Source: Candidatus Poseidoniaceae archaeon
GTDB lineage: Archaea; Thermoplasmatota; Poseidoniia; Poseidoniales; Poseidoniaceae
Length of the DNA: 64,000 nucleotides
Assembly (NCBI GenBank): GCA_949372875.1
Contig: CASIAW010000011.1
Coordinates: forward strand, 1 to 64,000
Direction: 5' to 3'
The position numbers were made by a program, and so were the translations under genes. Below the pieces are notes generated by a model that ran no database searches, was not told the origin of the DNA, and was given only the letters and a program-made list of their open reading frames with translations. Shown here piece after piece: positions 46,127 through 63,269 of the stretch (its first letter is position 1; every line of letters starts with the position of its first letter).

Positions 46127-47857
46127 ATGAATAAGAAAATAATGAGCGTGCTAATTGCAATGTTCCTTGCTCTCTCTGCAGTTTCTGCAGTGAGCGGTGA
46201 CGGATCTGACCCACTCGACCCATCTGATGGTGGCGCCGATTGGGACGGTGACGGTCTCACCAACTCCGAGGAACAGAACCAAGGCACTAATATGAACAAT
46301 GCAGACAGCGATGGCGACGGTCTCCCAGATGGCTGGGAAGTCTCGAACGGCCTTAACCCAACTAATGGTGGCGACGGTAATGCAGACCCTGACGGCGATG
46401 GTTTAACCAACGCCCAAGAGTATGCAGCGGGTACAAACCCGAACAACTCCGACACCGACGGCGACGGTAAGGCTGACAACGTTGACTCGTTCCCGAACGA
46501 TCCGAACGATGGTGAATATTCCGACTCCGACGGTGACGGTATCCCTGATGCTTACGACCCTGACTTTACCGAGTCAGGCGCAGGCGCAGGCGATGGTGGC
46601 ACTGAAGGCGGTGGCGAATCTGATGCCGGAGCTCAAAACCCACAACCAGGTCAAGGACAAGGTCAAGGACAAGGTCAAGGACAAGGTCAAGGACAAGGTC
46701 AAGGACAAGGTCAAGGACAAGGTCAAGGACAGGGTCAAGGACAAGGTCAAGGACAAGGTCAAGGACAAGGTCAAGGACAAGGTCAAGGACAGGGTCAAGG
46801 ACAAGGTCAAGGACAAGGTCAAGGACAAGGTCAAGGACAGGGTCAAGGACAAGGTCAAGGACAAGGTCAAGGACAAGGTCAGGGACAACAAGGTCAGCAG
46901 GGACAACAAGGTCAACAAGGCCAGCAAGGTCAACAAGGCCAGCAAGGTCAACAAGGCCAGCAAGGTCAACAAGGCCAGCAAGGTCAACAAGGCCAGCAAG
47001 GTCAACAAGGTCAGCAAGGTCAACAAGGTGAACAGCAAGACAATGGACAAGGTCAGCAACAACAAGGTGGCGAACAAGGTGGTCAACAAGGCCAGCAAGA
47101 AGGTCAAAACCAAAACGGCGAAAACCAAAACGGTCAGAGCCAGCAACAACAAGGTCAAACCCAAAACGGTCAACAAGGCCAACAGGGTCAACAGACCGAC
47201 CAACAACAACAACAGCAAACCGACAACCAGGGTCCTGCCGACAACGACGGTGACGGAATTCCAGACAACATTGATAATGACAACGACAACGATGGTATCC
47301 CCAACGATGTCGATGACAATCCAAACGACCACGACAACGACGGAATTGACGATGCTCTTGACAGTGATGATGACGGCGATGGAATCGACGACTCTGAGGA
47401 AACTCAAGACGGCGATCCAAACACCAACATCTACGACCACGACAACGACGGAATCACAGATTCCGTTGACCTCGACATCGACAACGACGGAATTGACAAC
47501 TACAATGATTGGGAAGATTCGAATGGTAATGGTATAATGGATGCTGGTGAAGACCGCAGCCGTGACCACGACAACGATGGCTCTGATGATGGAGTAGATA
47601 CTGATGACGACAACGACGATATTCTCGACGTTGACGAAGTTGGTGGAATCTCTGGAAACTACCGCTACGACCACGACAATGATGGAATTTGGGACCTTTC
47701 CGACACAGATGACGACAATGACGGCCTTGCCGACTGGTTCGAAGTCAATGACGGCAACCCAATGACCGGTCAATTTGATCACGACAACGATGGTCTCGAT
47801 GACAACGAAGATGACGACGACGATGACGACGGCATTCTCGATGAACTCGAAGCTTGA
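46127..47857 (+). CDS. Secreted calcium-binding protein with (GQ)n/(GQQ)n linker
   Basis: The 576-residue protein has a signal peptide (about 1-24). Residues about 35-150 carry thrombospondin-3/EF-hand-like repeats (SDGDGLPDGWE, DPDGDGLTNAQE, DTDGDGKADNVD). About 175-300 is a pure Gly-Gln stretch (39 GQ, then 16 GQQ), followed by a Gln/Asn-rich part. The last 200 residues are Asp-rich DHDNDG and DDDNDG repeats typical of calcium-loaded rods. There is no C-terminal anchor or sorting helix, so it is probably released or held through Ca2+. The next gene carries the same DHDNDG repeats, which suggests the two proteins work together at the surface. Confidence 0.88.
   Translation: MNKKIMSVLIAMFLALSAVSAVSGDGSDPLDPSDGGADWDGDGLTNSEEQNQGTNMNNADSDGDGLPDGWEVSNGLNPTNGGDGNADPDGDGLTNAQEYAAGTNPNNSDTDGDGKADNVDSFPNDPNDGEYSDSDGDGIPDAYDPDFTESGAGAGDGGTEGGGESDAGAQNPQPGQGQGQGQGQGQGQGQGQGQGQGQGQGQGQGQGQGQGQGQGQGQGQGQGQGQGQGQGQGQGQGQGQGQGQGQGQGQGQGQQGQQGQQGQQGQQGQQGQQGQQGQQGQQGQQGQQGQQGQQGQQGQQGEQQDNGQGQQQQGGEQGGQQGQQEGQNQNGENQNGQSQQQQGQTQNGQQGQQGQQTDQQQQQQTDNQGPADNDGDGIPDNIDNDNDNDGIPNDVDDNPNDHDNDGIDDALDSDDDGDGIDDSEETQDGDPNTNIYDHDNDGITDSVDLDIDNDGIDNYNDWEDSNGNGIMDAGEDRSRDHDNDGSDDGVDTDDDNDDILDVDEVGGISGNYRYDHDNDGIWDLSDTDDDNDGLADWFEVNDGNPMTGQFDHDNDGLDDNEDDDDDDDGILDELEA
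46649..46882 (+). repeat. In-frame 12-nt minisatellite, (GQ)39
   Basis: The unit GGTCAAGGACAA is repeated about 19.5 times and encodes 39 Gly-Gln pairs. A CAG-for-CAA variant marks higher-order blocks: the variant recurs at 46730, 46790 and 46838, that is 60 and 48 nt apart, and 46681-46740 is identical to 46741-46800. The array has therefore expanded recently in blocks of four or five units. Confidence 0.95.
46883..47026 (+). repeat. In-frame array encoding (GQQ)16
   Basis: Directly follows the (GQ)n array. The 9-nt unit Gly-Gln-Gln is repeated 16 times, mostly as an 18-nt doublet of GGTCAACAA and GGCCAGCAA. It keeps the reading frame and extends the disordered linker of the calcium-binding protein. 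Confidence 0.93.
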
Positions 47858-48108: not shown

Positions 48109-51100
48109 ATGCTCTCAAAAACACAATTAGAAAACATAAGCCAACGCCAGAAGCTCACAATGTCATTGACAATCGTCGTCTTGATGTTGACCAGCACAAT
48201 GCTTGCCATTGTTCAAGACGTGAGTTCAGAAGAAACGATGCCTAGTGTCGTATTCAGAGAAGGGGAAAGAATTACACAAACTTCTGCCCAGTCTACTGAA
48301 CAAGGCGGTCAAGGTTCATGGATAGGCAGTCAAGATGCTTGGCAGCTTGAAGACCACCCCGTTCTTTCAGACATCATGTGGACCGACCCCGGTGTCGCTT
48401 CAGGAATCATCGCCGACCGTGCTGCGATTGAAGCAATCATGCCTTATTTCTCAACGCTCCTTGAGGAGTCAAATAAAGACGATCACGACAACGATGGAGT
48501 CAGTGACCTTTACGACTTAGACGATGATAACGACGGAATTTACGACCTTCTTGAGCGATTCGACGGCTGTTATGGAACCGATCCGTTTGATCATGACAAC
48601 GACGGTATCTTGGATGCCGTAGATTGGGACGACGACAATGACGGAATTCTTGAAGGCCCAATTGATGTTCCAGCACTTGAAGCACTCGGACTTGATCCGC
48701 TCAATGTGAGTACTGACCGACGACTCGACCCATCAATTATCCACCCTTGGACAGGTCAAGCAGTCGGGGCATTCTACCTCGCAGATCAAAACCCAATGGA
48801 CCACGACAACGACGGGGTTACTGATGAAGATTCAGATGGCTCAGGTCCTGGAAGTTATGATGAAGACGACGATAACGATGCACGAATCGATCAATTCAAG
48901 TGGCCTTGTGATCTAGATAGCGACGGAATCCAAGACTACTTCGATACTGATGACGACGGCGACGGGGTTGTAGATATTGAGGACATTCATCCATATGATG
49001 CAACTCAAACAACATCCATGTCCGCTTCGAGCAACCTTTACGATACCGCCGTTTCATGGGATTTCAACTCATACCGAGAATATTCTGGTGGCGTCAATTT
49101 CCTCAATGAAGAACTCAACAGAGTAAACGCCCCTGGAAACACATCCAGTGGCTGGATTGGAAACCCGAATGCAATGGGGCCAAACGGAGTTGCCTCCTTC
49201 ACAACCATTGTTGATGGGGATTTGGACGGAGACCTCATTCCGAACTTCCTTGACCCAGATAACGACAATGACGGCACCCCGGACAGCGCAGATACTGATG
49301 ATGACAACGATGGAATCCTCGACATGGTCGACCCGGATGATGACAATGATGGTATTCCGGATGTTTGTATGAACCTCGACATGAACGCCGACAACAAAGG
49401 CGATTATGACAACACAATTCTCAACGGCGTGGCTTTGAGCCTCGATGCCTCTTCTCTTGCAGGTGGGCAGAACTATGTTGCTGCAAATGGCGTTCAAACC
49501 TCCGCAATCAATGGCATGGGTATGACCGTCGACATCACTGTTGATAGTAACGGCGAGATACTCACGGCAACTTTGGTATCAGGTGGCTATGGCTACTCAG
49601 TTGGCGACGATGTCGCAATCCTTGGTGGTAACTCTGGCGGTGCGATTATTGTTTCAAGCGTCAGTACAGTCAACTTCCAAATCCCTGGCGGGGATGGCGA
49701 TAACGACGGCACCCTCGATTGTGAAATGGATTATGACCAAGACCTTGACGACGATAGATTAAGGCCATTTGACCAGAACTACAACGCAGTTTACGATTGG
49801 CTCGACCCTGACATGGGTGGCACGCCAACTCCGGACAACCTTGGTGACATCTCTGTGAGCGGTGACGCAAATAACTTTGAATACGATTCCGACGATGACC
49901 AAATTTCGAACGAAAACGACTCATTCCCTCTCGACAAGGCATCCGATGTTGCCTCTTGGAATTGCCCAACACTCGCGAATCCAAACCCAGTAAATCCAGA
50001 CTCTCGATGTAACACTCGCCGAGCATCTTATTCTCAATTCAACGATTGGGATGGCGATGGAATCAACAACTGGATTGACGTTGATGACGACAATGACGGA
50101 ATCATTGATGCACTCGATATTGACTGGGATTGCGATTTTGATAACGACGGTGACCTCCACGCTATCAATGGTGCACTTTACAGAGACGACGGCCCAAACT
50201 CGGTAGACTCCGATATTGATGGCGACGGTCTTGAAAATGACATTGATTGGGACGACGATAACGATGGAATTTCCGACTATTACGATCCAGACGACGGAAA
50301 TTGCGGCGTTGTAGATTTTGATGCGAATGATAACTTTGCCTCGCCATACTACCCTGTAGCAGATGGCGGCAACCTCGACGGAACCCAAGACAGTACGCCA
50401 TACTCCGACAACTCTACAGACCATTGGAACCTCGTTTTCTGGCACAATCCGTTTTCCGATGTTGTACTTGATTACAACGGATACGACGCAACCACAACAC
50501 CAGTAACGCCGGGAACAGTCCCAGAATTTTACTGGTTCATGTTTGCTCGCTGGTCCCCTTACAACGGCGGTAACGATTGGGATATCGATGCGGATGGCGA
50601 TTCGCTCACCAATGGATTAGACATCGATCAAGACGCTGATGGGATGCCCGATTGGTGGGATCAAGACGAAGGTAACGACGGCGTTCTCGACATTAACGAT
50701 CTCAAAATGGGAGGCTCGTTCAACCTTACCACATGTGGCTGGACTGCTGGAAACATTGCAAGCGGCTACGTATGTGGTTACAGCTATGCGCTTGCTTATC
50801 ACATGCCATTGAACGGTGTTAACGCCCAATTTGGCTCACCCTATTCGACTCGCCCGGACGCTTATATTGACCAAGGCCCTACGACTGGTGGACCTTCAGG
50901 AAACTGGAGTTGCAATCCAGGAGCTCAAGGTGGATGTTGGCACTATGACTTCGGCGGTGACGGTTCGGTAGAATCTGGCATTACCTTCACACAAATGCAG
51001 AACAATCGCGACGCCTTCGTTACTTGGTTTGGCCTTTCAACTGGAATTTGGCAGTGGACTTCTGACAATGGGCCCGTCGCTGACTTCCCTGACGAACTCG

Positions 51101-54100
51101 GCGCTGACCTCATCAAGAACCACCTTGATGGCGACGTTGATGGAGATTTTACGAACATGACGGTTGATCTTGACAATGATTACGATTCAGTTTACGATTG
51201 GTATGATGTCGATGACGACAACAACGGTGTTTGGGACTACTTCGAAATTGATACTGATGATGACCTTGACAACGATGCGAATCAAGAAAACGCGAACTTC
51301 TTCAGCGGCCTAAATTGTGCTGATAATGACGACGATGGAAACGATGCAGACGTAGATGAAGACGGTTTCTTCCAAGCAGTTTGGGACCGTGGGATTTTGT
51401 CTCAAGGTTTGATACAACCAACGCTTTACGACGTTGACAATGATAACGATGCAGTTCCTGACGCAGAAGACCCTGATGATGATAATAACGGAATCCCTGA
51501 TTCGGTTCAAGAAACGTTACCAAATTGTTTCTGGGGCGAAGAGCAACATCCATTTGACCACGATAACGACGGAATAGTTGACTGGGCAGACGATGACTGG
51601 GACGCTGACGGATTGTCGAACTCAGTCGAATTAGCAATTAGCCTCACAGCAGCCTTCGACCACGATAATGACGGAGAACGCGACGATATCGATACAGATG
51701 ATGACGAGGATGGTATGCTTGATGATGATGAAGTCATTCTCTGGCCTACCCGCTTCAACCGTAACTCAACAAATCCTTGGGACCACGATGACTTCGGAGA
51801 TGGAGAAGGGCTTGCAAACCCACTCGAGCCAGGAACAGGGCCTGATGCAATCGACAACGATGATGATAACGACACATTTGTTGATGCTGATTATGATCAC
51901 CTAGAAGAAGGCGAAACCGGATTTGCCTGCTATGCCGGTGCAGAATCTAGCGACTGGGATCACGACAACGACTGCGTACTTGATGAAGATGACAAGGCAC
52001 CGACCTTTATCACGCTCAATTTGCCAGATACACTTTGGCTCGATGCTCAATCTCCCTCCATATTCAGCGGCCACGTTGATTGGGTTAACCCCGTTTCAGG
52101 ACAATTTGAGCCTGCAGTCGGACTCCCAGTTCAAGTTCATATCGAATGGGCAGATAATGGAACACTAGCATTGGAAACAATCAACGTATTGACCTCTGCA
52201 GTTGGTAATTTCACTGTTGGACAATTCCTTTACCCTGAAGATTTGACCGTTGGGGACAATACAACGTACAGGGTCTATGCAATCGTTACCGAAATGTTCG
52301 CTTTCAACGGCAATGAATCTCAATCGTATTACTTGGGCGCTGAAGCAAACCTCACCGCTGACATATACCTTGATAGCTACTTCCGAAGCGATGAACAACC
52401 GTTCTGGGTTGACATGTGGTCATATTATACCGCTGATTTGCAACGTGGTATCTTTGACAACCTTGTCCCAAACGTTCCATTCACTTTCTCCGTTCGCGGA
52501 GGAATCTTTGGAAACTATACTGAACCAACGAATTTCACCGGCCTTGGTGGAAACGGCTACCGGTCTGGAAGCAATGGTTTGGTTTCAGTAACCTTCGTAC
52601 AAGACATTGGCATCAATGGGTTGTGGAAGCAAATTCAATGGAACTCAACTCGAGATAATGGAGTTGGACAAATTCCAGGCGGATACGAAGAAGTTGCTTG
52701 GGATCCTCAAGACAAAGAACTCAAGCCACTGCTTGATGGACAGGGTGCAATAATTTCCTATGATTATACGAATACAAGCCTTCCAGCGGGTGATTATGAG
52801 GTAACGGCAGTAGCCCAGCCTGATTTGGCATCAGAGTGGCCATTCCCATACCTCCACGGCGATAGTACTGAACCTCAAGCAATTCGTGTCATGCACCGAA
52901 TGAACATTGAAGCTCAAATGATTGTTGAAGGAACAAATCCAGTGTATTGGTATAACTCTTCGATTAACAATGGCGATGGAACCTTTGGAAACTGGGCAAC
53001 AATTTACCATTCTGAAGCATTGGATGGAGCAAGTTTGAATTTCGCAGACATATCCAAATCCAAACCATATCCAATGAACTGGGACGGCAACCCTGCCACC
53101 CTCCTTGGTGAAGAGGCTCAATTACGCAACTTCATTTCGACCAATGCCACTCACTGGTTCATCACTTTGGTGAACGGTGGAGACAGCAATCTGCCGCCTT
53201 GTGGTGCAGTTGATTCGACAGACCCCGACAGTTTGGTTCGATGTGAAATCGTACCGGAGATGAACACTGGCGACACCCTCTACGTTACTGGTTCAGTTAC
53301 GAACCGAACCAATGTTCCTTGGGACGCAGACCCAATTGCTCTTCAAGTGGACATTGATGGTAACGGACAATTCCTCGGACAACAAGAAACAGCATACACA
53401 CAGCGACCTACCAAGGCTTGCCCAACCTGTGCTGCTGAGTTTGAATACAACTGGTCTTGGTATAGCCAATACGGTTCTGGAACCTATGGTATGCGTGTTG
53501 ACTTTACCAATTCAGCATACTACTTCACTGGTAACAGTTCGACGCTTGCTGCAACGGGTGCTTACATCAACGTTACCGTGGTGGGGACAACAGACTTCCA
53601 AACGACCTCCGTGCCTCGCCTATATCGTAACACGAGCACGACCATTCAAGCAAAGTTAGTTGACAACTCCTTACAACCGGTTCGTAATGTGCCGGTGAAT
53701 TATACGTGGTCAGCAGACGGCCGTACTGGTGTCAATTACACAGACGATAACGGATTCTTCGAGATACCATTTAATATCTCAGCTGCAGATTCATTGGGCG
53801 ACTTTAGTCTCCAATTCGAGTTTGCCGGAACGTCTTTACTCAAAGGCAATACAATGGTTCAGCAAGTTTGGGTTGTATCACGAACGTACCTCTCTGTAGT
53901 TTCTACTGATCCAAACCTCCGTCAGTCAGGTGATTTATGGGATTTCACAGCTCAAGTTACTGACGATAATACAACCTCTGTGCGAGATAGTGGAGGCGCT
54001 GCATTAGATGGTGCTGAAGCACCGAATGGTGGACTTGTTGATGTTATTTTCGAGGGTGTTGATTTCAACGGCGTGACACATCGCCAAATCGTAGCAACAG

Positions 54101-56259
54101 TCCGGCCATCTGCAGGCACAATTACACTGCCAGATGTTCAAGCAGACAAAGCCCACATGTGCTATTACGATGGTAACGGTGACGGAATTGCTGACCGAGA
54201 TATCAATCAAGACGGCATTCTTGACCGTTTGGAAACCAGTGGTATGTTCAATGGCGGAGCAGGATGTCTCAAAGCCGATATCGCCCCATTGAATGCTACA
54301 GCCCTCAAAGACGATCCAGAATCTTTCTTACCAGATGGATTTGGACCGGTCAATGTTATTCTCCGATTTGAGGAAACATTGCCAAATGAAGGCTGTGCAG
54401 AACTCGACCCAGTCGCTCTTGGAATCCAAGGGGCATGGGACTCTTGTCTCGGCGTTCCTGGAAACGATCACTTTAGATTGAAGATGACAAATAATGCAAA
54501 CGGGTTCTCTTTCATTGGACGAACTGCTTTGACCGTTGATGACCAAATCGTCTACACGAGCGAAGTAAGCCCAATAACCGGTGAAGTCATTCCTAAACCA
54601 ATGATTGTCACTGGACAGTTACAAGATGAATTAGGCACCAACTTGACCAACAGAAAGATACGTGTCAATTATGAGATGGTGAACAGCCAATCTAGCCCTA
54701 CATCTTGTAATTCTGGATTAACTGACCTTGATGGATATTTCTCTATCCAATGTCCTCTATCAGATGTTTCTGCTGGAAAAGCAAAGGTAACAGTTACCTA
54801 CTCTTCTTATGATAACAACGATGCATATCGATACCAGAACGACACTTATGAAACAGAATTTGACGTCTTCTCTAATTCAACATTAGCTTTGAACGAAGTC
54901 GGACCATTCAAGTCCAGTGTCGAGACATGGACAGCACCAAACACTACTGAATACCCGGTGCTTTACCTGAAGGAATCATTCCACGTTGATGCTAAACTGA
55001 TGCAATCCAACGGCCAATATGTCGGTGGAAAGTGTTTGAACATCTATCTGGACCCAGAACAAAACATTCGACCAATTTCAACAATTCGTACGAGTGAAAT
55101 TGACGGAACCGTTGAATGGTTTAGTGGCGATCCAAGTCAAAACCCAACACTCCGTGGCGTAGAAACTACTGGTGGAAAACTGGAAGGATTCCGCACACTG
55201 CGGGTTGCCTTTGAACCGGATTTGAATGTCCCAGGCGGCTGTGATAAAGATTCGTCCAACGTCTTGAATGGATCTTATGTTGACCAACTTGTCCTCGTTC
55301 GTTCACGAATTGATTTGCAAGTGAAGCAAACATGGAGTCACACCGGAGATAATGGATTGGATAATGAAGACCCAGTCATCGGTTCAATAGCCCTTCTTCG
55401 AGATCGTCTTGATCTTGCAGTTGAAAACGAAGAAGTCTGGTTTGTCCGCCAATATTGGTCTGATGAACTCAGTGAATGGGTCGTTGAAGGAACCAACAAG
55501 TCCCGGACCAACGAGCAAGGAATTGCAGACTTCGAGTGGCCGTTTGCAGGTCAAACCTGCGACGGAGTCGCTTGTACGGGCCAATGGCGAATTATTGCTT
55601 ATTACCCAGGTTCAACCTACTTTGAAGAATCACTCGACAATGTAACACACGAAGTCATATGGATGAAAGCAACTACAATCAGCGCTGATGCAGGATTCTT
55701 TACTCCTGCCAAGACGATGGCTTTCGTACTTGTTGCGATGGCGTTATTGATTGCTGGAGCAATTTACTATCAACGAGCACAAGCCCGTCGACAAGTGCAA
55801 GCTCTCAAGGGTATCTTGACTGATGCAATGATGCAACTTGAAGCCAGTAACGAATATATTGCAGCGATTTTCGATTGTTACAAGAATCTGGTCAAGCACT
55901 TCAAGCGATACGGCTTCATGAAGAAGGTCTACGAAACCACTCGTGAATTCGAGGCGGCTGTTCGTACTGCTTTCAACATGGTTCCTTCTGACCAACTTGA
56001 TGCATTCCTCTCCGTCTTTGAAGAAGCACGTTATTCGGATCACAACATCGATGCAAGCCATCGAGACCGAGCGTTGCAAACACTCGATGTTATCGTTCGA
56101 TCCCTCACCGTCGCTCTTGGCGAAGGGGGCATGGTTGAGCGCAAAGAACTGGTCAACCTGTATGACAAGCAAACGAAGGCCGGTGAATTCGTTGCAGCAG
56201 ATGGTTCTGTCCGTCAAGCTGGAATCGTCGAAGGCGAAGGCACAGATTTCAAGATTTGA
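48109..56259 (+). CDS. Giant calcium-binding surface protein with DUF4129-like cytoplasmic tail
   Basis: A 2716-residue protein with an N-terminal signal helix (about 18-38). Residues about 125-1300 contain dozens of Asp-rich repeats (DHDNDGV, DDDNDGI, DIDGDG) that bind Ca2+ in TSP3-like rods, interrupted by Trp/Gly-rich modules. Around 450-520 lies a SGGYGYSVGDDV-type beta repeat found in adhesins. About 1300-2520 are Ig-like and carboxypeptidase-regulatory-like beta domains (PVRNVPVNYTW, DDNGFFEIPFNI). A membrane helix at about 2538-2560 is followed by a helical tail of about 155 residues with FEEARYSDHNIDASHRDRAL, strongly like DUF4129. It probably forms a long stalk reporting or anchoring to the cytoplasm. 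Confidence 0.87.
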   Translation: MLSKTQLENISQRQKLTMSLTIVVLMLTSTMLAIVQDVSSEETMPSVVFREGERITQTSAQSTEQGGQGSWIGSQDAWQLEDHPVLSDIMWTDPGVASGIIADRAAIEAIMPYFSTLLEESNKDDHDNDGVSDLYDLDDDNDGIYDLLERFDGCYGTDPFDHDNDGILDAVDWDDDNDGILEGPIDVPALEALGLDPLNVSTDRRLDPSIIHPWTGQAVGAFYLADQNPMDHDNDGVTDEDSDGSGPGSYDEDDDNDARIDQFKWPCDLDSDGIQDYFDTDDDGDGVVDIEDIHPYDATQTTSMSASSNLYDTAVSWDFNSYREYSGGVNFLNEELNRVNAPGNTSSGWIGNPNAMGPNGVASFTTIVDGDLDGDLIPNFLDPDNDNDGTPDSADTDDDNDGILDMVDPDDDNDGIPDVCMNLDMNADNKGDYDNTILNGVALSLDASSLAGGQNYVAANGVQTSAINGMGMTVDITVDSNGEILTATLVSGGYGYSVGDDVAILGGNSGGAIIVSSVSTVNFQIPGGDGDNDGTLDCEMDYDQDLDDDRLRPFDQNYNAVYDWLDPDMGGTPTPDNLGDISVSGDANNFEYDSDDDQISNENDSFPLDKASDVASWNCPTLANPNPVNPDSRCNTRRASYSQFNDWDGDGINNWIDVDDDNDGIIDALDIDWDCDFDNDGDLHAINGALYRDDGPNSVDSDIDGDGLENDIDWDDDNDGISDYYDPDDGNCGVVDFDANDNFASPYYPVADGGNLDGTQDSTPYSDNSTDHWNLVFWHNPFSDVVLDYNGYDATTTPVTPGTVPEFYWFMFARWSPYNGGNDWDIDADGDSLTNGLDIDQDADGMPDWWDQDEGNDGVLDINDLKMGGSFNLTTCGWTAGNIASGYVCGYSYALAYHMPLNGVNAQFGSPYSTRPDAYIDQGPTTGGPSGNWSCNPGAQGGCWHYDFGGDGSVESGITFTQMQNNRDAFVTWFGLSTGIWQWTSDNGPVADFPDELGADLIKNHLDGDVDGDFTNMTVDLDNDYDSVYDWYDVDDDNNGVWDYFEIDTDDDLDNDANQENANFFSGLNCADNDDDGNDADVDEDGFFQAVWDRGILSQGLIQPTLYDVDNDNDAVPDAEDPDDDNNGIPDSVQETLPNCFWGEEQHPFDHDNDGIVDWADDDWDADGLSNSVELAISLTAAFDHDNDGERDDIDTDDDEDGMLDDDEVILWPTRFNRNSTNPWDHDDFGDGEGLANPLEPGTGPDAIDNDDDNDTFVDADYDHLEEGETGFACYAGAESSDWDHDNDCVLDEDDKAPTFITLNLPDTLWLDAQSPSIFSGHVDWVNPVSGQFEPAVGLPVQVHIEWADNGTLALETINVLTSAVGNFTVGQFLYPEDLTVGDNTTYRVYAIVTEMFAFNGNESQSYYLGAEANLTADIYLDSYFRSDEQPFWVDMWSYYTADLQRGIFDNLVPNVPFTFSVRGGIFGNYTEPTNFTGLGGNGYRSGSNGLVSVTFVQDIGINGLWKQIQWNSTRDNGVGQIPGGYEEVAWDPQDKELKPLLDGQGAIISYDYTNTSLPAGDYEVTAVAQPDLASEWPFPYLHGDSTEPQAIRVMHRMNIEAQMIVEGTNPVYWYNSSINNGDGTFGNWATIYHSEALDGASLNFADISKSKPYPMNWDGNPATLLGEEAQLRNFISTNATHWFITLVNGGDSNLPPCGAVDSTDPDSLVRCEIVPEMNTGDTLYVTGSVTNRTNVPWDADPIALQVDIDGNGQFLGQQETAYTQRPTKACPTCAAEFEYNWSWYSQYGSGTYGMRVDFTNSAYYFTGNSSTLAATGAYINVTVVGTTDFQTTSVPRLYRNTSTTIQAKLVDNSLQPVRNVPVNYTWSADGRTGVNYTDDNGFFEIPFNISAADSLGDFSLQFEFAGTSLLKGNTMVQQVWVVSRTYLSVVSTDPNLRQSGDLWDFTAQVTDDNTTSVRDSGGAALDGAEAPNGGLVDVIFEGVDFNGVTHRQIVATVRPSAGTITLPDVQADKAHMCYYDGNGDGIADRDINQDGILDRLETSGMFNGGAGCLKADIAPLNATALKDDPESFLPDGFGPVNVILRFEETLPNEGCAELDPVALGIQGAWDSCLGVPGNDHFRLKMTNNANGFSFIGRTALTVDDQIVYTSEVSPITGEVIPKPMIVTGQLQDELGTNLTNRKIRVNYEMVNSQSSPTSCNSGLTDLDGYFSIQCPLSDVSAGKAKVTVTYSSYDNNDAYRYQNDTYETEFDVFSNSTLALNEVGPFKSSVETWTAPNTTEYPVLYLKESFHVDAKLMQSNGQYVGGKCLNIYLDPEQNIRPISTIRTSEIDGTVEWFSGDPSQNPTLRGVETTGGKLEGFRTLRVAFEPDLNVPGGCDKDSSNVLNGSYVDQLVLVRSRIDLQVKQTWSHTGDNGLDNEDPVIGSIALLRDRLDLAVENEEVWFVRQYWSDELSEWVVEGTNKSRTNEQGIADFEWPFAGQTCDGVACTGQWRIIAYYPGSTYFEESLDNVTHEVIWMKATTISADAGFFTPAKTMAFVLVAMALLIAGAIYYQRAQARRQVQALKGILTDAMMQLEASNEYIAAIFDCYKNLVKHFKRYGFMKKVYETTREFEAAVRTAFNMVPSDQLDAFLSVFEEARYSDHNIDASHRDRALQTLDVIVRSLTVALGEGGMVERKELVNLYDKQTKAGEFVAADGSVRQAGIVEGEGTDFKI

Positions 56260-56320
56260 AATCGAGAATCAACCCTGATTCTCCTTAACCTTCAAGGGGC
56301 CGGTGTGCTGTGGCTTGTCC

Positions 56321-56764
56321 ATGGAAGACTGGAAGCAACTCATCGACCAAGCAATGCAGACCGAAACAAACGACACGATTGCAGCACACGCAACCTATGG
56401 AAAAGCAGTGCGTGCAGCCCTTGCACAATCGCAAATGCTGTTGGGTGATCTTGAAGCCGCTCAAATTATCGAATCCATTTATGGTGCTCTCGTGGCCTAT
56501 TCTCAGCAAATCATGCTCCGCATGAAGGCCGAAGACCCAGAAATTGGTGGCGTGGACCATGCGTTCCGTGCAGGACAGGCTTACGGCGTTTCATGCGTAC
56601 TCAACCATCTTATCGATCAACTGACTGATGTTGCAGGAATTACTGCACTCGGGGCTTTGGACGATTTCTCAGATACGCTCCATGAAGAAATAATCATTCA
56701 AGGTCGCGCTGCAGGACTCACCGTGGAATTGCTCGATGCGAAGGGCGAGATTCTCTACGAGTGA
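56321..56764 (+). CDS. Hypothetical helical protein downstream of the giant gene
   Basis: About 147 residues from the ATG at 56321, all-helical (MEDWKQLIDQAMQTETNDTI, then ALAQSQMLLGDLEAAQIIES, ending LLDAKGEILYE). No family, membrane segment or signal. A GTG 18 nt upstream is also in frame. It lies 61 nt after the giant gene in the same direction; it could be the cytoplasmic partner of the DUF4129-like tail or an independent gene. Confidence 0.62.
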   Translation: MEDWKQLIDQAMQTETNDTIAAHATYGKAVRAALAQSQMLLGDLEAAQIIESIYGALVAYSQQIMLRMKAEDPEIGGVDHAFRAGQAYGVSCVLNHLIDQLTDVAGITALGALDDFSDTLHEEIIIQGRAAGLTVELLDAKGEILYE

Positions 56765-58583: not shown

Positions 58584-61500
58584 ATGCGAACTACTCGGGC
58601 CCTGTTTTTGGTGACTCTTCTTCTGCTAACTCCGCTTTCCCTTATGGCTGCACCAGCCATGGCTGCTGACACATCTGTTAATGCAGATACAACATGGTCT
58701 GGCGACGTCGTGCTTACCGGTAATGTCACAGTAATGAATGGCTCAACACTCACTCTCTCTCCCGGAACGACCGTCGATGGAGGCGATGGGTATTGGATTC
58801 GCGTCGACGGAACACTCGATGCATCGAATGCGTATTTTTTCTCTTCCCAAGTGCCTCTAACCAGTGGATCTCATGGAGCTGGTCTTTGGACCGGAATTCA
58901 TGTTGCGAACAAAGGGCATGCTGTTCTCAATGATGTCACTATTGAAAATGCCAAAACAGCACTCAAGGTAGAAGGGCAACTCTCGGCATTTAAGATAACG
59001 ATCAAAGATTCGTATATCGGTATCAATGTCATGGGTTCAGCGGATATCAGCACACTTACAGCCGAACATATCGATTATGAAGTAATACGAAACTCCGGCC
59101 ATCTCAATCTATCCTCAGGATCTTTCACCGATGTCGCTGGAGGGATTTGGTCAACCGGAACAAGTATTGTTGATACAGTCACAATTTCTCAGGCAGGAAC
59201 AGGCCTCCGTTCAACAAGCGGGACCCTTTCAGCAGTTGGCATTGGTTTCATTGACACAACCGTTGCTATTGCCAGTCAACGAGGTGCATCGACAACTGTT
59301 CAAAGTAGTACTGCAGACAATGTGGCTTTGTTTATTGATGCAGCAGATAGTGATGATTTATCCGTCTCTTCAGCCGCAGTTTCAGGGCATCGTCTCTTGC
59401 TTGCTAATGGTGCTACAGATTTCACAATAGAAGATATTGCCTTTGAAGGGCATCTTTCTGATTCACTTGCAGTGGTTGACCAAAGATGCGTAGGCACGTG
59501 CACCTGGAATGACCTCGACATCTCAAATACGAGCAATGGAATTGTTCTCTCAGGGCAAGGCAATCACTCCTTTTCCAGTTTGAACCTTTCAGTGACTGAC
59601 CGTGGAATCGAAGGGACAGGTGCTGGACACCTGCATCTGAATCACGTCAACGTTACCGCTGGAACCACAGGTATCGAAATGCGAGACCCAAGCAGTACCT
59701 TTGATCATGTATCCGTCGTAATGACATCTGTAACGCCGACAGCTCTTGACATCCTCGACGGCATACACCATTGGTCGTCAGTTTCTGCTTCAAAATCGTA
59801 TTCTGCTACCGATGTGGATTCAATTGGTTTGACTGCTTGGTATGCTAGTATTGAATCAACCACATTGACATTGCTTCATTTCGGTAACGGAATAGTGGCC
59901 GATCATGCTACACTTTCTGGTAATTCATATTCTGTCCAAGACGGGAAAGGAGCGGGCATTGATTTACAACACAGTTCCTTGACTGTTGACTCACTTTCCA
60001 CTCGTGCCTATCCCGAGGGTGTCTCTCTTACCAAAACCTCTCAACTCCACGTCTCTGATTGGACTGCTGCTACACACACGACTCCACTCTCTATCAGCAC
60101 GCAATCGACCGCAACAATTCGAAATTTCCAACCCCAAAACACCCAACCTTCCTCTTCGGACGCCTTAGGTGATGGAACGCTCATCTACGGTGGTTCGACA
60201 ACTGCAAACATTGCAGTCTCCTCCGCATCTTACCTTGAAGAAACACCCGTCACATTCACTGATTTGGCAGGAAATCCAGTAGAAGCATCTATTTCTGTTC
60301 ACGGCTTTTCTTTACAGAGTGACGCGAACGGAGGTGCTAGCCTCCCTCTTTTGAGCAGTGGCTCCTCAGTCGATGTAACTCTTGCTGGCGCTGGAGTACG
60401 CGTTGTTCTTTACGGCGCCCAAATTGGACAATCAGTCCAAGTTCCAGTGATTCCTCAAGGCGACTGGACCATCTCGACGGGACAATTTGTATTCCTTGGT
60501 CCACGGCCGGATGGCTCACCCCATTCAATGACTGGCGACCTCACCCTGTCTACAGGTAGTGGCTTGGAATTATCAGAAACATCACTTGTTCTTCCTGCAG
60601 GAGGGACAGTTGATGTTCAAGGTTCAGGAGAACTTACTGGCAGCGCCTCTTCACTCATCTCGGACAGCGTGTCAATGGGTATTGATTCCGTATTAACACA
60701 ATCAGATGGCGGCCAAGGGCTCACAATTGATGCGAACCTTACTTGGGTTTGCCAATCGACTCGTAGCGTCACGAATGTGGATATTCTCGGTTCTCTTCTT
60801 CTTCAACCTGGATGCTCCGTCGAGATGCTTGAAGGTGGTGTCGAAGGTTCAGTTACGGCTCTTACCAGTGCAGAATTAACCATTCTTTCTTCTCTCCAAC
60901 TGGCCGTCCTCGACAAAGGTGAACCCGTTCAAGGCGCCCTCATTTCTATTGATGGATCTGTTACGACAACCGACCTTAACGGCGAGGTTTCTACCACTGC
61001 CACAGCACGTTATGTGAACGATAATTCTCAAACCGTTGGAGGTATCAAGAACATCAATCTTCAAATCGGTTCGTTCATGGATTTCGTAACATGGGATTCT
61101 TCTACTTCCTTTGAATACACGTTCATGGCTTCAACAATCTCTCCAGGTTCTCTTTCAAGTTGGCTTGTTTTGGAGGCCCAATGGAGTCCGTATTTCCTTG
61201 ACGGAGATTTATCTGTAGAAGCCCTTGGTACACTCACGATTGATGACGGCGTCTCACTCCGTATCTCTGAAGGAGGTAAAATCAGCGTCGATGGCAGAAT
61301 CGATATTGGCGCAGCAACACTCTCCTCGACAGGCCTTGGTGCACGGTGGGGCGGTTTTGTGATGGGTGCTACGAGTTCGACCATTGATTTGTCACAGACA
61401 ACAATTGTCGAAGCTTCACCGGCATTGAACATCGAAAGTGAAGGCACCTTCGTGGGGGATGGAGTCACGATGGCTCGTTCATCCGGAGCAGATCCTTTGA

Positions 61501-63269
61501 TACTCATCAGTTCGAACAGTAATGCAAATATTACGTTGAAAAATTCACAGATGTATGATGCAGGGAACGGTTGTATCAAGGCATTCCCTTCTTCCAGCCA
61601 ATTGACATTATCGAGTGTTACGCTCAAGTCATGTAATGGAATTGGAGTATGGGCGCGTCAAATTAATCTTGATTTCGACACGATTACTCTTGCCGATAAT
61701 GTCTCGACAGGGTTTGATTTTACTGCTGTTACCGGTTCAATCACCAATATCGATGCGACAATGTTCAATGGCGATGGAACTGTATTGGCACTGGATTCAA
61801 TCGATGATGGATTCACAGTATCTCATCTGAACGGTAGTGTTGGCTTGGTGGCCGGTATTACCGGAGTGAACAGCCGAAATATTCAGATGAGCCACATTCA
61901 ACTTACGGGTTCGCCAGGTCTTGATTTCGACAATTCAGCAGGTTTACTTCACGATGTCATCTTGAACGGCCCTGGTTCTGGCACTGCGTTCATCAACCAT
62001 CATGGTCGAACATCAGATTCTTTGGTCGTTGAAGACCTCGTCGCCTTCTCTTATTCAGTGGGTGTGGATTTACATTCAGATGAAAACGACGGCACTCTCG
62101 CCCCGTTCATTCTTCGAAATCCCGATATTATCGCCTCAACTGTGCTTTCATCTGAAAATTATCCCGCTCGACTTGAAGGTGGAGTGACCTATGGGGGGAT
62201 TTCTGCATCGGGTGATATCACAATTGATCTTATCGATACGACCAATGAGAACCCATCGATGTATGATGGTGCTGAGTTGCGAACTTGGGCGACCTTTACG
62301 CTGAATGCAAAATTGAATGGAGTCTTGACAAATGTTGACTTTTCAATAGATACTTTGGGACTGGAACCAGCCTTTACAGCCTCTGTTTCTGGGATCTCAC
62401 CTTTGATCGAGGTCCCACTTTCCTATACAGGAAACGGTACCAGCTCCCAACTCTCTTCGATTTCAATTCAAACCCAAGCAACAGGCTTACCCGATGTAAT
62501 GGAATGGTGGAATGACTCTTCCCTCAGACTCATCGAAATCACATTGGTTGCAAACAACCCACCAACTGTCGAGATTACAAAGCCGTATTCTGGGGAACGC
62601 GTTATGGAGTCTGTCCATCTTTTGGCAGCAGCGGATTATTCTGATGATTTGGATGCGGTTGCGGATTTAACTTTAGTTTGGATTATTACTGATTCTTCCG
62701 GTGTTGAAGTTATGCGTGGGCCAAATGAGCCCCAATACAACATCACTGATTTACAATATGGATTGTATGTCCTTGAGTTACGAGTGACCGACACACTCGG
62801 TGCAACTTCAAGTTCTGCCGTTGATTTCGAAGTTACTGAACTTGATAGTGATGAAGATTGGACCAACACATGCACCTTCACAATAGGCACAGGCGTTTGG
62901 TTCGATGGGACTAATGGGTATCCTTGTGGCCCAGATAGCGAAGACACGGATGATGATAACGACGGCCACCCCGATTCCAGGGATGCGTGGCCAGTTGATC
63001 CATGCGCTTGGCAAGATACAGACGATGATGGCTTACCAAACACGGTTGTTTGTCCAGAAGGCAAGACCACGTATTTGACAGCAGATCAAGATGATGACGG
63101 AAACGGAGTGCTTGATATCTTGGAAGGCGATTCATCTTCTGAAAGTGGTGATTTTTCAACTGGAACTCTTTTACTCATTGTCTTGATAGTTGCCGCAGTC
63201 GCCTTGTTCATGACAAGGATGAACCGCGGTGGTGGCGAAATCGGCTCAATTGATGAGCGGCACCTTTGA
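58584..63269 (+). CDS. Giant secreted beta-helix-like protein with PKD-like and calcium-binding end
   Basis: A 1561-residue protein with a signal peptide ending near APAMA (about 28). Up to about residue 1300 it is Ser/Thr/Gly-rich with repeated short beta-strands (GTLDASNA, VSGHRLLL, NISSA-type turns) as in right-handed parallel beta-helices (PbH1) and polysaccharide-degrading or adhesion proteins. A PKD/Ig-like domain begins near NNPPTVEITKPYSGE (about 1320-1420), then a Cys-containing Asp-rich calcium segment (DTDDDNDGHPDSRD, DPCAWQDTDDDGLP), and one membrane helix near 1525-1550 with a short basic tail. Likely a surface adhesin or binding protein. Confidence 0.83.
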   Translation: MRTTRALFLVTLLLLTPLSLMAAPAMAADTSVNADTTWSGDVVLTGNVTVMNGSTLTLSPGTTVDGGDGYWIRVDGTLDASNAYFFSSQVPLTSGSHGAGLWTGIHVANKGHAVLNDVTIENAKTALKVEGQLSAFKITIKDSYIGINVMGSADISTLTAEHIDYEVIRNSGHLNLSSGSFTDVAGGIWSTGTSIVDTVTISQAGTGLRSTSGTLSAVGIGFIDTTVAIASQRGASTTVQSSTADNVALFIDAADSDDLSVSSAAVSGHRLLLANGATDFTIEDIAFEGHLSDSLAVVDQRCVGTCTWNDLDISNTSNGIVLSGQGNHSFSSLNLSVTDRGIEGTGAGHLHLNHVNVTAGTTGIEMRDPSSTFDHVSVVMTSVTPTALDILDGIHHWSSVSASKSYSATDVDSIGLTAWYASIESTTLTLLHFGNGIVADHATLSGNSYSVQDGKGAGIDLQHSSLTVDSLSTRAYPEGVSLTKTSQLHVSDWTAATHTTPLSISTQSTATIRNFQPQNTQPSSSDALGDGTLIYGGSTTANIAVSSASYLEETPVTFTDLAGNPVEASISVHGFSLQSDANGGASLPLLSSGSSVDVTLAGAGVRVVLYGAQIGQSVQVPVIPQGDWTISTGQFVFLGPRPDGSPHSMTGDLTLSTGSGLELSETSLVLPAGGTVDVQGSGELTGSASSLISDSVSMGIDSVLTQSDGGQGLTIDANLTWVCQSTRSVTNVDILGSLLLQPGCSVEMLEGGVEGSVTALTSAELTILSSLQLAVLDKGEPVQGALISIDGSVTTTDLNGEVSTTATARYVNDNSQTVGGIKNINLQIGSFMDFVTWDSSTSFEYTFMASTISPGSLSSWLVLEAQWSPYFLDGDLSVEALGTLTIDDGVSLRISEGGKISVDGRIDIGAATLSSTGLGARWGGFVMGATSSTIDLSQTTIVEASPALNIESEGTFVGDGVTMARSSGADPLILISSNSNANITLKNSQMYDAGNGCIKAFPSSSQLTLSSVTLKSCNGIGVWARQINLDFDTITLADNVSTGFDFTAVTGSITNIDATMFNGDGTVLALDSIDDGFTVSHLNGSVGLVAGITGVNSRNIQMSHIQLTGSPGLDFDNSAGLLHDVILNGPGSGTAFINHHGRTSDSLVVEDLVAFSYSVGVDLHSDENDGTLAPFILRNPDIIASTVLSSENYPARLEGGVTYGGISASGDITIDLIDTTNENPSMYDGAELRTWATFTLNAKLNGVLTNVDFSIDTLGLEPAFTASVSGISPLIEVPLSYTGNGTSSQLSSISIQTQATGLPDVMEWWNDSSLRLIEITLVANNPPTVEITKPYSGERVMESVHLLAAADYSDDLDAVADLTLVWIITDSSGVEVMRGPNEPQYNITDLQYGLYVLELRVTDTLGATSSSAVDFEVTELDSDEDWTNTCTFTIGTGVWFDGTNGYPCGPDSEDTDDDNDGHPDSRDAWPVDPCAWQDTDDDGLPNTVVCPEGKTTYLTADQDDDGNGVLDILEGDSSSESGDFSTGTLLLIVLIVAAVALFMTRMNRGGGEIGSIDERHL

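Follow-up and report, generated by a model that had tools for sequence, protein, structure and literature searches.

A giant DUF4129-tailed stalk protein of Poseidoniales as a candidate surface component of a MoxR-DUF58-DUF4350 module

Results

Gene and domain layout of stalk B

The window (the whole 64,000-nucleotide stretch of DNA analysed) comes from a member of the order Poseidoniales (Marine Group II), which is among the ocean's most abundant archaeal groups, and includes a giant membrane-anchored stalk gene that we refer to as stalk B. Its ORF starts with ATG and occupies exactly 48109-56259 (+), and translation yields the same 2716-residue protein as had been given in an earlier note on this DNA. 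Hydropathy analysis identified two hydrophobic stretches in all, residues 15-40, which may be a signal peptide or an N-terminal anchor, and residues 2529-2557, the one membrane helix that had been placed ahead of the tail. The features are as follows.

48109-56259, + strand: stalk B, giant membrane-anchored stalk gene, 2716 aa (ORF and translation)
48151-48228, + strand: N-terminal hydrophobic segment, residues 15-40 (hydropathy)
48472-52008, + strand: Asp-rich TSP3-like region, residues 122-1300 (motif and conservation analysis)
52009-55683, + strand: Ig/macroglobulin-like beta-sandwich array, residues 1301-2525 (weak Pfam matches, AF2 and Foldseek)
55693-55779, + strand: single transmembrane helix, residues 2529-2557 (hydropathy; AF2)
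55876-56085, + strand: DUF4129 (PF13559), predicted cytoplasmic, residues 2590-2659 (profile matches)
56176-56256, + strand: C-terminal motif KAG.F...G....AG......F, residues 2690-2716 (alignments of stalk B and paralog tails)

The tail of ~160 residues that follows the helix, described earlier as DUF4129-like and in which we recovered the string quoted for it, FEEARYSDHNIDASHRDRAL, matches PF13559 at residues 2590-2659 with 32.2 bits when the full protein is searched (E 1.2e-7), 38.1 bits when the tail is searched by itself (E 1.7e-9) and 39.5 bits in a genome-wide scan, all three above the curated gathering cut-off of 24.8 bits, so that the HMM check proposed in the earlier note bears out the assignment. 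Alignment of 17 tails from both families revealed 49 invariant positions out of 190, with identities of 44-95% among stalk B sequences, and the C-terminal KAG.F motif occurs in stalk B but is absent from the tail of its paralog, stalk A (described below). In AF2 models, the transmembrane helix forms one long helix that continues unbroken into the cytoplasmic tail, whose model is only moderate (pLDDT 65, pTM 0.47). Foldseek comparison of the tail model with the PDB gave nothing significant (generic four-helix bundles only, best E 0.06), no significant PDB relatives emerged from sequence searches, and profile searches of the tail found no known signalling domain.

Ectodomain of stalk B

The Asp-rich repeats reported earlier are readily seen: residues 122-1300 contain 21.7% Asp, carry a net charge of -266 and hold 29 of the 31 D.[DN].DG motifs of stalk B. 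Alignment of 21 full-length stalk B sequences, drawn from two families, shows 22 invariant Cys in the ectodomain (14 in the Asp-rich region and 8 in the beta-sandwich region, residues 1301-2525) and a further one, Cys2590, in the tail. As judged from the alignment, the Asp-rich pattern is not a product of chance, since it aligns across the two families together with its 14 invariant Cys, and the even number of invariant Cys suggests disulfides in the ectodomain. By motif, the region appears to be like thrombospondin type 3 (TSP3) and would bind calcium, a prediction based on motif resemblance because the Pfam profile TSP3_bac (PF18884) gives no match on stalk B, despite the 31 D.[DN].DG motifs; the same profile does score on the gene upstream of stalk B and on several outgroup stalks. 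Matches to BamM fell on the Asp-rich stretch, far under the BamM cut-off, and were dismissed as composition or repeat similarity.

The domains previously termed Ig-like do stand as beta-sandwiches, but are better named Ig/macroglobulin-type: the region shows weak Pfam matches to Big_1, MG2 and MG4, and Foldseek searches with an AF2 model of residues 2032-2716 (mean pLDDT 60) led to domains of alpha-2-macroglobulin and complement C3/C5. No fn3 match was found in stalk B by Pfam profile search.

Stalk B and its gene neighbourhood in Poseidoniales

DUF4129 is present in all 146 Poseidoniales genomes sampled, and in genomes at least 90% complete (n = 33) it occurs in exactly two copies in 29 and in one copy in 4. 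The two copies correspond to stalk B (~2,600-2,740 aa) and stalk A (~2,970-3,010 aa). We collected 20 full-length orthologs of stalk B from two families (2569-2735 aa); MAGs are fragmentary, and several break within or close to the stalk B gene. The combination of which the earlier note knew no description is not a one-off, but is order-wide in Poseidoniales and has counterparts across Thermoplasmatota that lack a transglutaminase (TG) and are poor in TSP3. Stalk B adjoins rpl18e-rpl13-rps9 in 18 of the 20 orthologous loci, and no match to these genes was found within the stretch examined in L080 and L082.

Directly upstream of stalk B in the window, 46127-47857 (+) encodes a 576-aa protein, likely secreted, whose repeats match TSP3_bac (44.6 bits) and which also contains a very long low-complexity stretch of Gln-Gly; a match to it lies beside the stalk in L072-L079 and L082. 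The repeat probably disrupts assembly, as several MAG contigs stop within this gene or close by. Between stalk B and rpl18e, 56303-56764 (+) encodes a 153-aa protein without a Pfam match, with 77-97% identity in L072-L079; in L081 it is encoded on the other strand from the genes around it. The ribosomal protein genes are closely followed downstream by 58584-63269 (+), which encodes a second large surface-type protein of 1561 aa with a beta-helix match (28.9 bits), PKD-like matches and a C-terminal hydrophobic segment.

The transglutaminase is absent from stalk B and altered in its relatives

The earlier note had seen no transglutaminase in stalk B, and we found none in it or in its 20 full-length orthologs: Pfam profile search gave no Transglut_core match in stalk B, a purpose-built TG profile gave zero matches at E<=10 against the 21 stalk B sequences, and TgpA_N (PF11992) is likewise missing from stalk B, which has only two hydrophobic segments. 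A hidden TG in stalk B was rejected on the Transglut_core and TG-profile results. Neither outcome that the earlier note had named as refuting its reading, a missing DUF4129 match or a catalytic triad in the ectodomain, was obtained. The only protein of this genome that combines DUF4129 with Transglut_core is the paralog encoded on contig C3.

C3, L003:6280-15306: stalk A, 3008 aa, with a DUF4129 tail and a transglutaminase fold

The Transglut_core match of stalk A scores 54.9 bits, and the C-terminal halves of stalk A and stalk B are homologous (hhalign E 1.8e-36). Like stalk B, stalk A has a TSP3-like N-terminal region, an Ig array, one C-terminal transmembrane helix and a DUF4129 tail; unlike stalk B, it has a transglutaminase fold, with Cys kept and His lost, and lacks the C-terminal KAG motif. 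All 21 Poseidoniales stalk A sequences retain the active-site Cys, none has His at the catalytic His position (H-x-W-x-E-V), and the residue at the Asp position varies between D, E, N and Q, a pattern pointing to a transglutaminase that is probably catalytically dead. A second Cys just past the Asp position is invariant in the same 21 sequences and could pair with the old nucleophile. The seven TG stalks analysed from elsewhere in Thermoplasmatota all keep the His, with Cys replaced by Ser in five (L213, L214, L215, L216 and L246) and both residues present in two (L206 and L220). Loss of catalytic residues from the TG therefore seems to have happened on more than one occasion, since stalk A lost His and five outgroup stalks have Ser in place of Cys.

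MoxR, DUF58 and DUF4350 genes in Poseidoniales

The MoxR and DUF58 genes for which the earlier note had suggested a search elsewhere in the genome are found on contigs C4 and C5, unlinked from the stalk. The C4 set is a DUF4350-MoxR-DUF58-TM309 operon (L222), scoring 35.7 bits for DUF4350, 216 for AAA_3 and 52.3 for DUF58. The C5 set consists of DUF4350, DUF58 and a TM protein (L223; 29.7 bits for DUF4350, below its cut-off of 30.4, and 69.7 for DUF58), with a lone MoxR gene (L224) ~130 kb away. No signalling domain was found in the partner genes scanned. The same two sets were present in six other Poseidoniales genomes examined in detail, and DUF58 genes number exactly two in 34 of 34 Poseidoniales genomes of the phylum sample; a separate check of 16 genomes gave two DUF58 genes in 14, one in one (83% complete) and four in one, with two strong MoxR matches in 13. 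DUF58 of these sets is presumably vWA-like, and the genome would with DUF4350 and MoxR hold the gene content of the predicted arCOG01314 complex discussed below, with stalk B standing outside any operon with a MoxR set.

Stalks and MoxR modules form operons in other Thermoplasmatota

Operon linkage of the surface gene was seen for relatives of the stalk elsewhere in Thermoplasmatota. Outside Poseidoniales, the gene that comes next after a DUF4129-tailed stalk is DUF4350, in the same orientation and mostly across a short gap or with an overlap, and the tie to MoxR and DUF58 that the earlier note drew from TgpA-type proteins takes the form of direct gene adjacency in these relatives. With loci picked by tail match rather than at random, and locus counts that are not independent, the order stalk-DUF4350-MoxR-DUF58-TM protein was found in 10 of 12 TG-less loci, stalk-DUF4350-DUF58 with MoxR absent in 5 of 8 TG-bearing loci, and the full set in all six loci of a sister family in the class, the remaining outgroup loci having no such neighbour within the stretch examined. 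DUF4129 and DUF58 co-occur in 76 of 145 Thermoplasmatota genomes; of the others, 17 have DUF58 only and 51 neither, and a single one has DUF4129 without DUF58, by a sub-cutoff match (Fisher p 4e-23, uncorrected for shared ancestry). Stalk ectodomains across the phylum vary from 1,000 to 3,000 residues, some of them containing TG or TSP3 and others not. The simplest relative has no ectodomain: its DUF4129 is part of a small 4-TM protein encoded one gene from MoxR-DUF58. Homology between the cytoplasmic end of DUF4350 and DUF4129 was considered and ruled out (hhalign E 0.056, probability 1%).

In quick tree searches with SH-aLRT as the only support measure, stalk B tails group with TG-less, MoxR-linked outgroup tails (SH-aLRT 84), apart from stalk A. 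The DUF58 tree weakly agrees with a pairing of stalk B and the C4 set (SH-aLRT 80-85), the MoxR and DUF4350 trees do not resolve it, and the deep branches in these trees of partner genes are short and have weak support. The C4 set, with MoxR inside, has the gene content of the TG-less stalk operon, and the C5 set, with MoxR absent, that of the TG stalk operon. Because gene content, the DUF58 tree and the tail tree point the same way, we weakly assign stalk B to the C4 rather than the C5 set. The ancestors of stalk B would have been TG-less DUF4129 stalks encoded in one operon with MoxR. An origin of stalk B as a recent copy of stalk A minus the TG is disfavoured by the tail tree, with moderate support.

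Discussion

To our knowledge, MoxR-DUF58 modules are widespread and their targets mostly unknown. On balance, we somewhat favour the view that stalk B belongs to a MoxR-DUF58-DUF4350 module as its surface stalk, the module being a machine that would assemble, export or remodel the stalk by way of its tail. Outside the cell, the long ectodomain would stand out as a scaffold of the envelope or as an adhesin, with calcium and disulfides probably making it stiff. The DUF4129 tail, as the sole part of the stalk on the MoxR side of the membrane, would be the cytoplasmic handle or contact point for the MoxR AAA+ ATPase and the vWA-like DUF58, which together with membrane-anchored DUF4350 would carry out the assembly, export or remodelling. 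In Poseidoniales, the stalk gene would have moved away to rpl18e-rpl13-rps9 while the DUF4350-MoxR-DUF58 operon stayed elsewhere. We infer contact between tail and machinery, ATP-driven action, calcium binding and surface function from sequence, and the coupling of stalk and MoxR may have been lost in Poseidoniales because their stalk lies outside the MoxR operon. Stalk B thus looks like the outer arm of a chaperone-linked cell-surface machine, kept order-wide in two versions.

A machine of this type has been predicted before. Operons of DUF4350 (arCOG01314), MoxR and vWA proteins with Ig-like surface proteins were proposed to encode a complex for secretion or for remodelling of the membrane (Makarova, Galperin and Koonin 2015, PMC5898192), and MoxR ATPases with vWA-type partners act as assembly chaperones in the cases studied (PMC7159879, PMC8430577). 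The loci of stalk relatives resemble the arCOG01314 complex in that a single operon unites DUF4350, MoxR and a vWA partner with surface proteins of the Ig-like or S-layer-like kind (PMC5898192); nonetheless, the main text of that work mentions neither DUF58 nor transglutaminase, DUF4129 was not found there, and Thermoplasmata are marked as lacking arCOG01314. Stalk B further differs from the surface component of that complex in being a DUF4129-tailed giant that is unlinked from the operon in Poseidoniales.

TgpA-type proteins typically end in DUF4129 and are located near MoxR-DUF58. Like stalk B, TgpA of Pseudomonas aeruginosa is a membrane protein with a large extracytoplasmic region, but it has six transmembrane helices and an active Cys-His-Asp transglutaminase (PMC3507681), whereas stalk B has one C-terminal transmembrane helix, no TG and a TSP3/Ig ectodomain of ~2,500 residues. 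The bifidobacterial PFNA cluster brings together a large fibronectin-domain surface protein, MoxR, DUF58 and a transglutaminase (PMC8430577, PMC12067865). It differs in that FN3 and transglutaminase reside on different proteins, a Ser/Thr kinase also belongs to the cluster and a DUF4129-tailed TSP3 stalk is not described, and its order pkb2-fn3-aaa-duf58-tgm is not matched by stalk B, which has no fn3 and stands apart from MoxR and DUF58.

In terms of genomic context, assembly or remodelling is at least as good a fit as the calcium or contact signalling suggested in the earlier note. That the stalk is a receptor or mechanosensor, sensing calcium, contact or tension and signalling inward through the tail, possibly by gating MoxR-DUF58, would accord with its single-pass topology, long ectodomain and strongly conserved cytoplasmic tail, with the unbroken run of the transmembrane helix into the tail in AF2 models and with the sensory role proposed for the PFNA cluster (PMC8430577); we nevertheless consider it unlikely, given a tail and scanned partner genes devoid of known signalling domains and a gene context no different from that expected for assembly. 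Still less probable, in our estimate, is an ordinary TSP3/Ig adhesion protein with a leftover tail, its MoxR link lost when the gene moved: the position beside ribosomal protein genes rather than MoxR in 18 of 20 Poseidoniales loci and the interpretation of Poseidoniales thrombospondin genes as adhesion genes (PMC6461757) speak for it, but the 49 invariant columns of a highly conserved tail and the retention of both MoxR-DUF58-DUF4350 sets across Poseidoniales speak against it. A cryptic transglutaminase or other enzyme in the stalk B ectodomain, which the TG fold in sister lineages and the paralog and the activity of TgpA, a relative of the TG-bearing stalks (PMC3507681), might bring to mind, is most improbable in view of the empty Transglut_core and TG-profile searches and of a paralog that itself lacks the catalytic His.

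Returning to stalk B as part of a MoxR module, the stalk offers a concrete, testable candidate client for the MoxR machine, and the proposal would find a place for two very large proteins kept by Poseidoniales. The same tail domain occurs in one phylum under very different ectodomains, with TG, without TG or with a TG apparently dead, and since the tail domain is constant while ectodomain and TG vary, the conserved core would seem to lie in the DUF4129 tail and MoxR set rather than in the enzyme. A bolder scheme, which we put forward as speculation with slim odds of being right, envisages two parallel MoxR-DUF58-DUF4350 machines in Poseidoniales, each serving one giant stalk through its DUF4129 tail; with the ancestral TG missing in one stalk and disabled in the second, ATP-driven control of a calcium-stiffened fibre would have replaced enzymatic cross-linking and allowed surface attachment to be controlled from the inside out. 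Such a pairing of one stalk with one MoxR set yields clear predictions.

The component families and the type of operon were already known and predicted before. What we did not find in the open-licence literature, where earlier description elsewhere is possible, are giant TG-less stalks that end in a DUF4129 tail, the order-wide stalk pair of Poseidoniales, the His loss in stalk A and the link of giant stalks to MoxR sets in Thermoplasmatota. In that literature, DUF4129 was not found in any archaeal paper, no experimentally established archaeal function was found for DUF4129, DUF58 or DUF4350, nothing joined Poseidoniales with MoxR, and Poseidoniales appeared with transglutaminase only in connection with ice-binding proteins.

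A membrane-type protein without a Pfam match follows DUF58 in both sets of this genome (L222:7010-7936 and L223:5459-6670), and a TM-type protein occupies the place after DUF58 in most outgroup operons as well.
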